The position numbers and the translations under genes were made by a program. The notes under the pieces are model-generated. The model was not told the origin of the DNA and did not search any database. It saw only the letters and a list, made by a program, of their open reading frames with translations. Shown piece by piece: positions 11,565 to 57,290 of a DNA stretch of 64,000 bases. How positions within the stretch are numbered: position 1 is the stretch's first letter; every line of letters starts with the position of its first letter. This stretch comes from Neisseria subflava (lineage in GTDB: Bacteria; Pseudomonadota; Gammaproteobacteria; Burkholderiales; Neisseriaceae), in assembly GCF_003044935.1 (NCBI RefSeq), contig NZ_POXP01000001.1, positions 558,001 through 622,000 on the forward strand, in the 5' to 3' direction.

Positions 11565-11828
11565 TCTTTATACCTCTTGGTAAGTGTGGATGTTGAGTGA
11601 GAATGATAGAACTTTTTAGTGCATTTCGACAAGTATTCTTTCAGATAAGATGCATCTTTTTGTCAACAATTCTACAATTTGTCTAATTTTTGACAAGTGT
11701 TTTTGAAACTTTGCAACAAATTTTAAAAATTGGACAAATTCCTATTGCGCAGCCCCTATAAAAAGCCTAAAATCCGCCCATAAACGCAAACCATCATTCA
11801 TACCTACCAATAGCAAAGAATACTCATC
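11565..11828. promoter_or_regulatory. Divergent gshA/leuC control region with inverted TTTGTCTAA / TTGGACAAA sites
   Basis: AT-rich region between divergent gshA and leuC. ATTTGTCTAA is at 11677-11686 and its near-exact complement TTGGACAAAT at 11730-11739. A perfect -35-like TTGACA (11690-11695) overlaps the first site. Further TTGTCAA/GACAAGT half sites lie at 11657-11670 and 11627-11634. The 12-mer TTTGTCTAATTT also occurs in the leuA promoter region at 57271-57282. I could not assign a convincing -10 for leuC; TATAAA at 11757-11762 is a candidate. Binding by any protein is inference. Confidence 0.5.
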
Positions 11829-13238
11829 ATGAGCGCACAAACCCTTTACGATAAACTTTGGAACAGCCACGTCGTCCGCGAAGAAGAAGACGGCACTGTC
11901 CTGCTTTACATCGACCGACACCTGGTTCACGAAGTAACCAGCCCGCAAGCATTTGAAGGCTTGAAAATGGCCGGCCGCAAACTCTGGCGTATTGACAGCG
12001 TAGTCTCCACAGCCGACCACAACACCCCGACAGGCGACTGGGACAAAGGTATCCAAGATCCGATTTCCAAACTGCAAGTCGACACTTTGGACAAAAACAT
12101 TAAAGAGTTTGGCGCACTCGCCTACTTCCCGTTCATGGATAAAGGTCAAGGCATTGTGCACGTTATGGGCCCGGAGCAAGGTGCTACCCTGCCCGGCATG
12201 ACCGTTGTCTGCGGCGACTCGCACACTTCTACTCACGGCGCATTCGGCGCATTGGCGCACGGTATCGGCACTTCCGAAGTCGAGCACACCATGGCGACCC
12301 AATGTATTACCGCTAAAAAATCCAAATCCATGCTGATTTCCGTTGAAGGCCGTCTGAAACCCGGCGTTACCGCCAAAGACGTGGCGCTTTATATCATCGG
12401 CCAAATCGGTACGGCAGGCGGTACAGGCTACGCCATTGAATTTGGCGGCGAAGCCATCCGCAGCCTTTCCATGGAAGGCCGCATGACCTTGTGCAATATG
12501 GCGATTGAAGCCGGTGCGCGCTCAGGCATGGTTGCCGTCGACCAAACCACCATCGACTATGTAAAAGGCAAACCTTTCGCACCTAAAGGCGAAGCGTGGG
12601 ATAAAGCCGTCGAGTACTGGCGCACGCTGGTGTCTGACGAAGGCGCCGTATTCGATAAAGAATACCACTTCAAAGCCGAAGACATCGAACCTCAAGTAAC
12701 TTGGGGCACCTCGCCTGAAATGGTTTTAGACATCAGCAGCAAAGTGCCTAATCCTGCCGAAGAAACCGATCCGGTCAAACGCAGCGGCATGGAACGCGCC
12801 CTTGAATACATGGGCTTGGAAGCCGGTACACCATTAAACGAAATCCCTGTCGATATCGTCTTTATCGGTTCTTGCACCAACAGCCGTATCGAAGACTTGC
12901 GCGAAGCCGCCGCCATCGCCAAAGGCCGTAAAAAAGCGGACAATGTACAACGCGTATTGATTGTTCCCGGATCCGGTTTGGTTAAAGAACAGGCCGAAAA
13001 AGAAGGCTTGCACGAAGTGTTTATAGAAGCCGGTTTTGAATGGCGCGAGCCGGGTTGCTCTATGTGCCTCGCCATGAATGCCGACCGCCTGACCTCGGGA
13101 CAACGTTGCGCCTCTACTTCCAACCGGAACTTTGAAGGCCGTCAAGGCAACGGCGGACGCACCCACCTCGTCAGCCCTGCCATGGCAGCCGCAGCCGCGG
13201 TGACCGGCCACTTTACCGATATCCGCACTATGGCTTAA
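11829..13238 (+). CDS. leuC: 3-isopropylmalate dehydratase, large subunit
   Basis: With LeuD isomerises 2-isopropylmalate to 3-isopropylmalate (second leucine-specific step). 469 aa, aconitase-family domain. The three [4Fe-4S] ligands are visible at Cys349 (GSCTNSR), Cys410 and Cys413 (GCSMC). The substrate-loop [16 protein letters not shown] is also present. One intragenic DUS lies near 12346. leuD is not adjacent but 866 bp downstream, after a lipoprotein and a VOC gene. The divergent upstream region carries putative operator sequences shared with leuA. Confidence 0.97.
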
Positions 13239-54071: not shown

Positions 54072-55276
54072 GAGACCTTTGCAAAATTCCCCAAAATCCC
54101 CTAAATTCCCACCAAGACATTTAGGGAATTTCTCATGAGCACCTTCTTCCAGCAAACCGCACAAGCCATGATCGCCAAACACATCGACCGTTTCCCACTA
54201 TTAAAGTTGGATCAAGTGATTGATTGGCAGCCGATCGAACAATACCTGAATTGTCAAAGAACCCGTTACCTTCGAGACCACCGCGGCCGTCCCGCCTATC
54301 CCCTGTTGTCCATGTTCAAAGCCGTCCTGCTTGGACAATGGCACAGCCTCTCCGATCCCGAACTAGAACACAGCCTCATCACCCGCATTGATTTCAACCT
54401 GTTTTGCCGTTTTGACGAACTGAGCATCCCCGATTACAGCACCTTATGCCGCTACCGCAACTGGCTGGCGCAAGACGACACCCTGTCCGAACTGCTGGAA
54501 CTGATTAACCGCCAACTGACCGAAAAAGGCCTAAAAATAGAAAAAGTATCCGCCGCTGTCGTTGACGCCACCATTATTCAGACCGCCGGCAGCAAACAGC
54601 GCCAGGCTATAGAAGTCGATAACAAAGGACAAGTCAGCGGCCAAACCACACCGAGTAAAGATAAAGATGCCCGCTGGACAAAGAAAAACGGGTTATACAG
54701 ACTCGGTTACAAACAACATACCCGTACCGATGAGGAAGGCTATATCGAGAAACTGCACATCACTCCCGCCAATACCCATGAGTGCAAACACCTGTTGCCT
54801 TTGTTGGAAGGTATAGCCGAAGGCACGACCGTCTATGCCGACAAAGGCTATGACAGTGAGGAAAACCGACAACATCTGGAAGAGCATCGGCTGCAGGACG
54901 GTATTATGCGCAAAGCCCACCGCAAACATCCGCTGTCGGAAGCGCAAACCAAACGCAACCGATATTTGTCGAAGACCCGTTATGTGGCCGAACAAAGCTT
55001 CGGTACGCTGCACCGTAAATTCCGCTACGCCCGGGCAGCCTATTTCGGGCTGCTCAAAGTGAGTGCACAAAGCCATCTGAAGGCAATGTGTTTAAACCTT
55101 TTGAAAGCCGCCAACAGGCTAAGTGCGCCTGTTGCTGCCTAAAAGGTGGCCGGATGCCTGATTATCAGGTATCACGGGTACCTGAAGAGAAAAAAAGGGG
55201 AATTTGGAACGAAAAACAGCCGAAATCCTGTTTTGGACTTCGGCTGTTGAGAAAAGGGCTATTTTGCAAAGGTCTC
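54072..55276 (+). mobile_element. IS5-family insertion sequence, IS1106-like, intact
   Basis: Terminal repeats GAGACCTTTGCAAAAT (left, from 54072) and its complement ending at 55276 bracket a full transposase gene. AGCCT occurs directly at both outer edges (54067-54071 and 55277-55281) and may include the target duplication. A solo copy of a similar end is at 37501. Both termini and the transposase are intact, so the copy may be mobile. Confidence 0.88.
54135..55142 (+). CDS. IS5-family transposase (IS1106-like)
   Basis: 335-aa DDE transposase. N-terminal DUF772-like domain (YPLLSMFKAVLLGQWHSLSDPELEHSLITRIDFNLFCRF), then the catalytic core with first Asp in VVDATIIQT (about 142), second Asp in VYADKGYDSEENR (about 233) and Glu in YVAEQSFGTLHRKFRYARAAYFGL (about 290). 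Full length with no frameshift. It lies 16 bp inside the annotated left end after a short leader that repeats the FGNF-like AAATTCC motif. Close to IS1106 from N. meningitidis by memory. Confidence 0.9.
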   Translation: MSTFFQQTAQAMIAKHIDRFPLLKLDQVIDWQPIEQYLNCQRTRYLRDHRGRPAYPLLSMFKAVLLGQWHSLSDPELEHSLITRIDFNLFCRFDELSIPDYSTLCRYRNWLAQDDTLSELLELINRQLTEKGLKIEKVSAAVVDATIIQTAGSKQRQAIEVDNKGQVSGQTTPSKDKDARWTKKNGLYRLGYKQHTRTDEEGYIEKLHITPANTHECKHLLPLLEGIAEGTTVYADKGYDSEENRQHLEEHRLQDGIMRKAHRKHPLSEAQTKRNRYLSKTRYVAEQSFGTLHRKFRYARAAYFGLLKVSAQSHLKAMCLNLLKAANRLSAPVAA

Positions 55277-55286
55277 AGCCTAATAA

Positions 55287-55333
55287 AAAAGCCGTCCAAA
55301 ACGTATTACAACGTTTTTAGACGGCCTTTTACT
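55287..55333 (-). terminator. leuA terminator, degenerate DUS stem
   Basis: AAAAAGCCGTCCAAAACGT pairs with ACGTTTTTAGACGGCCTTTT; one DUS-like arm each side but both mutated from consensus. It sits just downstream of leuA, next to the IS right end. Confidence 0.65.
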
Positions 55334-55344
55334 TGTTCAAAGCG

Positions 55345-57138
55345 TTAAATCATGCCTCTGCCTTGCGCTTTTGGCTTGGCTTGGCCGAATTCCAATTTGC
55401 TCAGTGCAGACAAATAGGCTTTGGCAGTCGCCACCAACACATCGGTATCTGCGCCTTGACCGTTGACCACACGATCGCCACGTTGCAGGCGGACGGAAGT
55501 TTCGCCTTGGCTTTCGGTACCTTGAGTTACCGCATTGACAGAGTAAATCTGCAAGGTTGCGCCACTTTGTGCTACGCTTTCAATGGCTTTGAAGATGGCA
55601 TCAACAGGGCCTGAGCCGCTAGCGGAAGCGTGTTTTTCTTCACCGCGAATACTGAACACAATATCGGCGCGCGGTTCTTCGCCGGTTTCAGTGCTGATTT
55701 TTTGGGAAATGAATTTGTAGCTTTCGGTATTCATATTGCCCATTTCGTCAGACACCAAAGCGTGCAGGTCTTCATCAAATATTTCGCGTTTCTTATCCGC
55801 CAGCTCTTTGAAGCGTGCAAATGCCGCATTCAACGCCTCTTCGCTTTCCAACTCAATACCCAAATCTGCCAGCTTGGTTTTGAAAGCATTACGGCCGGAG
55901 AGTTTACCCAAAGTCAGGCGGTTGGTTGACCAGCCAACTGATTCGGCAGTCATGATTTCATAGGTTTCAGGGTGTTTCAACACGCCGTCTTGGTGGATGC
56001 CTGATTCGTGTGCAAAGGCATTTGCACCAACTACTGCTTTATTTGGCTGAATCGGATAGCCGGTAATGGTGGACACAAGTTTGGATACCGGCACGATTTG
56101 CGTGGTATCGATGCCAGTTTCCAAGCCGAACAAATCATGACGCACTTTCAACGCCATCACGATTTCTTCAAGGCTGGCATTACCCGCGCGTTCGCCCAAG
56201 CCGTTGATGGTACATTCCACCTGACGCACGCCTGCCTGAACAGCGGCCAGCGAGTTGGCAACCGCCATACCCAAGTCATTATGGCAGTGGGTCGACCAGA
56301 CTACTTTGTCGCCGTTGGGCACGCTTTTGATGATGTTGCTGATACGCTCGTACCACACGGAAGGGATGGAGTAGCCGACAGTATCGGGAATGTTGATAGT
56401 AGTCGCCCCCGCTTCGATAACCGCCGTAAAAATTTTGGCAAGGAAGTCTAAATCCGAACGCACTGCGTCTTCGGCAGAAAATTCCACATCATCAGTGTAT
56501 TCTTTGGCAATTTTTACCGCTTTGACCGCCGCATCAATGACCTGCTGCGGCTTCATTTTCAGTTTGTGCTCCATGTGGATGGGGCTGGTGGCGATAAAAG
56601 TGTGAATACGTTTATTCGGCGCAGGGGAAACAGCTTCGCCTGCTTTGCGCACATCGTTTTCAACGGCACGCGCCAATGAGCAAACTGTAGATTTAGTAAT
56701 GATTTTGGCAATCGCATTAACCGATTCAAAATCGCCCGGACTGGCGGCGGCAAAACCCGCCTCAATCACATCGACACCCATCTTTTCTAACTGGCGGGCA
56801 ATACGGATTTTCTCCTCTTTGGTCATGGATGCACCGGGGGACTGCTCACCGTCGCGCATGGTAGTGTCGAAAATAATTACACGATTGGTCTGTGTCATTT
56901 CTGTTCTCTCCAGAGATTCATTTTTTTGTAAAAAAGCATTCAAATCAAGCGGTCTGCCTTGCGCTTCCGCCAAAGCGGTCAGTTTTTGCAACTGAGCCAA
57001 AGGCAGAGAACCGCGTGTACGCCATTTGTAGATAGCCGCTGTGGTCGCAGCATTTTCCGGGTCGTGCTGTTTCAGGGCTTCGGCCAGCGCGTTTACGCCG
57101 CCAAAATAGGCAACCAAACGGTCAATGTCTAATTGCAT
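55345..57138 (-). CDS. leuA: 2-isopropylmalate synthase with N-terminal helix-turn-helix domain
   Basis: Catalyses the committed leucine step: acetyl-CoA plus 2-ketoisovalerate to 2-isopropylmalate. Residues 81-597 are a normal LeuA (517 aa): [17 protein letters not shown], metal-binding [37 protein letters not shown] and the C-terminal leucine-binding dimer domain. Residues 1-75 form an extra domain ([33 protein letters not shown]) like a Cro/YdaS-type HTH. There is no stop or frameshift between them. The frame starts at 57138 with an AAGGAA site. A second strong site (GGAGAG) precedes Met81 at 56898, so both a fusion and a plain LeuA could be made. Operator-like sites lie in the promoter. 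Confidence 0.95.
56899..56912 (-). promoter_or_regulatory. Internal ribosome-binding site before the canonical LeuA start
   Basis: On the minus strand GGAGAGAACAGAA directly precedes ATG 56898, a better Shine-Dalgarno than expected by chance inside a coding region. It decides between one fusion product and two isoforms. Confidence 0.6.
56899..57138 (-). other. YdaS/Cro-like HTH domain encoded in frame ahead of LeuA
   Basis: An 80-codon segment absent from usual LeuA proteins. Predicted helices: [18 protein letters not shown], a recognition-like [12 protein letters not shown], then [16 protein letters not shown]. The order and the Lys-Trp-Arg-x-Arg-Gly signature resemble small phage and antitoxin repressors (YdaS, Cro). 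I vaguely recall a named domain linking phage repressors and isopropylmalate synthases but cannot verify it. Confidence 0.75.
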
Positions 57139-57290
57139 GATGTTCCTTGTCCAAATCTGATTAAGATTATTGTGTTCTGGTTTTGCATTATACTCATTTT
57201 AGACAAAACGACAATCTATTTTTATCAAAATATTGGTATAAATTTTAAAACTTGAGAAATTTTTATACATTTTGTCTAATTTGGACTATT
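57139..57290 (-). promoter_or_regulatory. leuA promoter with operator-like inverted repeats
   Basis: Minus-strand -10 TATAAT (57192-57187) and -35-like TTGTCG (57214-57209) are 16 bp apart. Between them lies TTTTGTCTAAAAT (complement of 57196-57208). An oppositely oriented copy, ATTTTGTCTAAT, is at 57269-57280, and a weaker TTGTCCAAAT (57147-57156) lies next to the ribosome site. A repressor bound in the spacer would block the promoter. The same core occurs upstream of leuC. Confidence 0.65.

Follow-up and report, generated by a model that had tools for sequence, protein, structure and literature searches.

A Cro-like helix-turn-helix fused to 2-isopropylmalate synthase in Neisseria: a putative enzyme-regulator of leuA and leuC

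NadR and PutA are each a metabolic enzyme and a DNA-binding protein in one chain, and act on related genes in the NAD and proline pathways; the DNA-binding domain of PutA is a ribbon-helix-helix. To our knowledge, neither is the allosteric first enzyme of an amino-acid synthesis pathway. BirA, the group II biotin protein ligase, is found as the same enzyme without its DNA-binding domain in other bacteria, according to excerpts of one article (PMC4016012). Here, we analysed a stretch of 64,000 nucleotides of Neisseria subflava (contig NZ_POXP01000001.1, positions 558,001 to 622,000; hereafter the window), in which leuA, encoding 2-isopropylmalate synthase, starts with an in-frame helix-turn-helix (HTH) domain. 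By analogy, this HTH-LeuA might work like BirA, NadR or PutA. Like the biotin ligases, LeuA is split into fused and unfused families. It differs from BirA in being another enzyme with another HTH family, in that its DNA binding is a prediction, and in having a conserved internal start, through which a single gene would yield both forms.

The gene is a single open frame of 597 codons at 55345-57138 (-). Codons 1-80 encode an N-terminal Cro-like HTH and a linker (56899..57138, (-)) and are followed in frame by a complete LeuA of 517 amino acids plus stop (residues 81-597; 55345..56898, (-)). A first-pass annotation of this DNA had reported 80 extra codons in the leuA frame with no stop before the synthase, and the frame bears this out: enzyme and DNA-binding domain share one chain, as expected of a bifunctional enzyme-regulator. 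The LeuA part matches NF002087 (E 1.6e-271), passes the cut-off of the ordinary bacterial LeuA family TIGR00973 (699.3 bits against 598.7) and contains the Pfam domains HMGL-like, HCS_D2 and LeuA_dimer, i.e. the catalytic barrel, the post-barrel region and the leucine allosteric domain. HTH-LeuA is such an enzyme with 80 codons added.

That annotation also suggested a domain search of residues 1-80, which identified an HTH family. With the 80 amino acids as query, residues 5-65 score 74.8 bits against NCBIfam NF046037 'carph-isopro', whose curated cut-off is 38 (E 4.4e-21). The name suggests that the curators saw this domain on isopropylmalate synthases; the family model carries no visible information on targets, operators or regulation. 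The domain had been called Cro/YdaS-like, and only the first half of this description holds. In the window protein, P22_Cro (PF14549) remains below its gathering cut-off (19.7 against 30.2 bits) and YdaS (PF15943) gives no match up to E 0.1. Among the HTHs of 23 relatives, P22_Cro matches 22 (best E 3.7e-4) and YdaS only 5, with a weaker best E of 0.013, so that 'Cro-like' fits better than 'YdaS-like'. PHROG 8008 'DNA binding protein' also matches 22 of the 23 (best E 7.7e-7). A profile search of PDB with the HTH returned 13 sequences up to E 10, none of them significant; the best is the Cro-like XPH1 (0.088), the fifth is Cro (0.33) and the other rows look unrelated. The residues invariant across the 23 HTHs include A34, A35, Y37, K38, W39, R40, R42 and P46, which would lie around the recognition helix.

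The fusion is conserved well beyond this genome. The comparison of leuA across Neisseria proposed by the first-pass annotation shows it kept and unbroken, with no stop in the fused frame, in 33 of the 35 other genomes of the genus; the remaining two have completeness values of 83% and 85%, and searching them with LeuA gave no close LeuA either. In the Neisseriaceae, 77 of 83 genomes carry the domain (cut by a contig end in G347), including 70 of the 71 high-quality ones and all 12 genera. At the order level, it was found in 32 of 250 sampled genomes, the 32 falling in Neisseriaceae and six further families, with 33 domain matches in frames of 560-650 amino acids. LeuA follows the HTH in frame at all 25 loci read outside the family. 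Among 28 loci, the named matches include Neisseria, Bergeriella, Alysiella, Snodgrassella and Gulbenkiania, as well as metagenome-assembled genomes of Laribacter, Aquitalea, Eikenella and Conchiformibius. At E 0.001, NF046037 matches 30 of the 274 genomes of a class-level sample, and exceeds its cut-off only in the genome under study and in G320. A tblastn search of 50,697 phage records with 70 residues of the HTH found no standalone phage homologue at E 0.01.

The HTH also evolves as a functional protein segment would. Over 97 pairs of 18 loci, its mean dN is 0.065 and its mean dS 1.51, a ratio of 0.043, against 0.073 for the LeuA part (330 codons); these values use the pairs with usable dS (97 of 153 for the HTH and 145 of 153 for LeuA), the others being left out. 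Variation among the 18 loci affects 67 of 69 third codon positions, 29 first and 13 second ones. These substitution patterns indicate strong purifying selection on the HTH at the amino-acid level. Together with its conservation in genus and family, this rules out a sequencing error or an annotation artefact.

Some fused loci have particular features. G015 has two fused leuA, on contigs C36 and C70, in an assembly that is 4% contaminated, and G553 has a second HTH match (C1:1900712-1900939) within a 560-amino-acid frame. The leuA of G003 (L009, 1501-3291) looks mosaic: the HTH end and the 3' end are nearest to L012 (92-97% in most blocks), whereas the middle is nearest to L001 (88-98%, versus 72-89% with L012). 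This suggests recombination inside the gene with retention of the HTH.

An alignment of the DNA upstream of 37 leuA loci (35 from the genus, plus G039 and G048) reveals three conserved blocks amid diverged sequence. The first, O1, has the consensus TTAGACA-nnn-TGTMTAA, a palindrome of the general form TTAGACA-nnn-TGTCTAA. In the window this candidate operator reads ATTAGACAAAATGTATAAA (57262..57280, (-)); it is supported by the alignment footprint and by the comparison of fused and unfused loci given below, and is the sole perfect match to the pattern in its genome. The second, O2, is a half-site, TTTTGTCTAA (57199..57208, (-)), placed between the predicted -35 (TTGTCG, 57209..57214, (-)) and, 16 bp away, the predicted -10 (TATAAT, 57187..57192, (-)), both read from the alignment, where GTATAAT is conserved. 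The third, O3, is a half-site TTRGACA downstream of O1 that overlaps the Shine-Dalgarno sequence of the HTH start (TTTGGACAAGG, 57145..57155, (-)). Of the 35 loci of the genus, 31 have O2, 70-73 bp away from O1, and 31 have O3. O1 and the -10 are separated by 83-86 bp in 33 of the 35 and by 74 bp in 2.

The palindrome tracks the fusion. We scored the 300 bases upstream of leuA against 100 composition shuffles per locus, at p<=0.01 and at a strict score. Of 58 fused loci, 52 have the palindrome at p<=0.01 and 49 at the strict score, versus 1 and 0 of 20 unfused loci, all of which lack the 80-codon HTH. Further fused loci from outside the family gave 24 of 25 and 17 of 25, respectively, two of them being repeats of G039 and G048. 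The unfused set excludes two fused loci, L236, which is cut by a contig end, and L105, which has the site when scored separately; it includes L251, the second LeuA-like gene of G048, a genome that also bears a fused one. Within a single genus, the leuA of G360 has neither HTH nor site, and G355 and G361 have both.

The second predicted target is leuC (11829..13238, (+)), which has orthologues in 60 of 60 relatives. Scans of the genome and of the window place an operator candidate upstream of it, ATTAGACAAATTGTAGAAT (11669..11687, (-)), and the comparison of spacings a second half-site, TTGGACA (11730..11736, (+)), 60 bp away. All 36 genomes of the genus have the palindrome in front of leuC at p<=0.01. 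It is present at 15 of the 22 scored loci of other Neisseriaceae genera (2 of 24 were left unscored), G360 being among the seven without it, and in none of 12 order-level genomes lacking the HTH. The half-site lies at 60-61 bp from the palindrome in 31 of the 36 genomes and at 50, 58 and 71 bp once each, and is absent in 2. At leuC as at leuA, the spacings that deviate do so mostly by about one helical turn (58 being an exception), suggesting that proteins touch each other on the same face of the DNA. Given that most Neisseriaceae have the leuC site and that none of the 14 other order-level genomes does (12 without and 2 with the HTH), the putative autocontrol of leuA looks older and the control of leuC newer. 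In five leuC promoters (L127, L131, L134, L137 and L141) an extra half-site-like word, GTCTAA or CCTAA before TAT or CAT, overlaps the likely -10, an arrangement that would suit a repressor.

Allowing up to 3 mismatches, the window contains 3 matches to the O1 pattern for 0.32 expected, and none of 100 dinucleotide shuffles gives as many. In the whole genome, the same search gives 16 places versus 38 for a reversed control pattern, hence weak matches alone carry no meaning. What distinguishes the leu genes is position: 13 of the 16 places are in frames of at least 120 amino acids, the other 3, at leuA, at leuC and at the end of one gene, are intergenic, and only leuA and leuC bear a promoter-placed site. 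In the 36 genomes of the genus, 18 of the 67 places with up to 1 mismatch are upstream of leuA and 17 upstream of leuC, where about 0.02 would be expected if the places were spread uniformly. Eighteen of the remaining 32 sites were inspected; 15 are in coding frames and 3 are intergenic. On the matches inspected, we reject a wider regulon and claim no target beyond leuA and leuC. Judged by their sequence, candidate operators stand upstream of genes of the enzyme's own pathway.

The fused frame has, as the first-pass annotation stated, a good ribosome site of its own: a Shine-Dalgarno AAGGA (57144..57148, (-)), then 5 nucleotides, then ATG. Missing from that account was an internal start at the junction of the two parts, made of a GGAG (56908..56911, (-)) and an ATG (56896..56898, (-)). 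Both are kept in 35 of 35 loci of the genus despite the variable linker around them, and the glutamate codon within GGAG is invariably GAG (18 of 18 loci), whereas GAG accounts for 162 of 793 glutamate codons in the LeuA part. This conservation implies that an ordinary, HTH-less LeuA is probably also produced. The PDB construct 3rmj, presumably the meningococcal LeuA enzyme, is without the HTH part, its match beginning at query residue 80. Four genomes (G335, G337, G338 and G340) have no ATG at the junction, and there the fusion is therefore probably the sole LeuA, although translation might instead start at a TTG in G335 and, in the other three, at an ATG farther upstream that has no Shine-Dalgarno. 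A leucine attenuator leader was also considered and set aside, because the 80 codons, uninterrupted by a stop, encode a conserved HTH.

We consider it likely that HTH-LeuA is bifunctional, an enzyme that also regulates leuA and leuC, most probably as a leucine-dependent repressor. We infer that both LeuA forms are translated and that the fused one binds DNA. In a LeuA oligomer, the Cro-like domains at the N-termini would bind the palindrome TTAGACA-nnn-TGTCTAA and the phased half-sites, each LeuA dimer presenting two HTHs to the palindrome. The targets would be the DNA preceding leuA itself and, in the majority of the Neisseriaceae genomes tested, also that preceding leuC. Repression is suggested by the place of O2 between the -35 and the -10 at leuA: HTH-LeuA bound to O1 and O2 would block this promoter. 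Leucine is suggested as the signal by the intact allosteric domain, so the grip on DNA would depend on the metabolic state of the enzyme part. The internal ribosome site on the same mRNA would let enzyme and regulator levels differ, and the cell could hold more enzyme than regulator. More tentatively, and with somewhat more doubt than confidence, one might propose that several HTHs of one LeuA oligomer bridge the helically phased operators at leuA and leuC, that leucine gates catalysis and DNA binding together, and that the internal start sets the ratio of regulator to plain enzyme. If so, feedback inhibition and repression would be a single molecular event.

Several observations weigh against this interpretation. 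Six of the 58 fused leuA loci miss the p<=0.01 threshold. The site consensus was derived from the genus loci with G039 and G048, the shuffles keep base composition and not dinucleotides, and the loci are related to each other. A looser pattern is only mildly unusual in the window, being reached by 4 of 100 dinucleotide shuffles. Across the 36 genomes, 32 of the 67 near-perfect sites fall elsewhere than at leuA or leuC, and the reversed control has 40 sites (26 of them in G013). The leuC site is present throughout the genus and missing outside it in the fused G039 and G048, which belong to other families, and at 6 of the 21 scored fused loci of other Neisseriaceae genera; G355 and G361 lack the leuC site too, so G360 is informative for leuA only. 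Finally, G378 retains the HTH and yet has no site at either gene. Its HTH (L226) is altered, with FDG for FGG and RVRSS, and possibly the system has decayed there. This genome, and the still putative binding of the HTH to the sites, could also be accommodated if the palindromes were operators of a separate leucine-responsive transcription factor, with the LeuA HTH a relic or otherwise used. Excerpts of PMC4138514 describe such a regulator, the Lrp-type NMB0573 of N. meningitidis. We find this improbable, because the site follows the fusion at the strict score (0 of 20 unfused versus 49 of 58 and 17 of 25 fused loci), because G360 lacks HTH and site alike, and because of the strong selection on the HTH.

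It is more improbable still that the internal start makes nearly all LeuA and that the upstream frame is a little-translated leader with no DNA-binding role. The strong, conserved internal GGAG and ATG and the HTH-less 3rmj construct are what one would then expect. Against it stand the selection on the HTH amino acids, the missing junction ATG in the four genomes above, with the reservation made there, and the lack of a stop between HTH and LeuA, which means that every ribosome starting upstream makes the fusion. A less remote alternative, though still one we doubt, is that HTH-LeuA regulates in response to something other than leucine, or activates leuC, with ketoisovalerate, isopropylmalate or oligomeric state setting its binding. 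Isopropylmalate is the signal of yeast Leu3, and in the window the second leuC half-site lies upstream of the likely -35 and not on it. The intact leucine-binding domain and the position of O2 inside the leuA promoter argue instead for end-product repression. The first-pass annotation had suggested that HTH-LeuA could act on the leu promoters. Its central point is strengthened by conserved palindromes of the expected kind, upstream of the leuA and leuC it had guessed, which track the domain; the interpretation as a whole is partly supported.

A leucine-pathway regulator would matter for Neisseria and their relatives, where the literature, in the excerpts cited here, invokes Lrp or leucine limitation for changes in leuA (PMC3032703, PMC4138514). 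These excerpts report that gonococcal leu1 is up anaerobically, perhaps from low leucine, with Lrp considered (PMC3032703), and that LeuA is up in biofilm and NMB0573 responds to leucine and methionine (PMC4138514). Excerpts of other articles report changes in leuC with transferrin (PMC2662411) and the re-annotation of 93 gene starts (PMC4176332). The excerpts of PMC5383966, PMC10464499, PMC4176332, PMC5399837 and PMC5343134 make no mention of a LeuA HTH, and literature searches, which did not cover subscription papers, found no published description of HTH-LeuA. If our interpretation is right, LeuA joins the enzymes that double as transcription factors, with allosteric inhibition and repression predicted to share one leucine site. 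Studies confined to the internal-start form would then concern a protein that lacks its regulatory part.

Downstream of leuA, on the opposite strand, lies a frame of 335 amino acids (54135-55142, (+)) which we take to resemble an insertion-sequence transposase. Between the two converging genes, at 55285-55332, there is a terminator-like inverted repeat built on the word GCCGTCyAAAA, presumably reminiscent of paired Neisseria uptake sequences.
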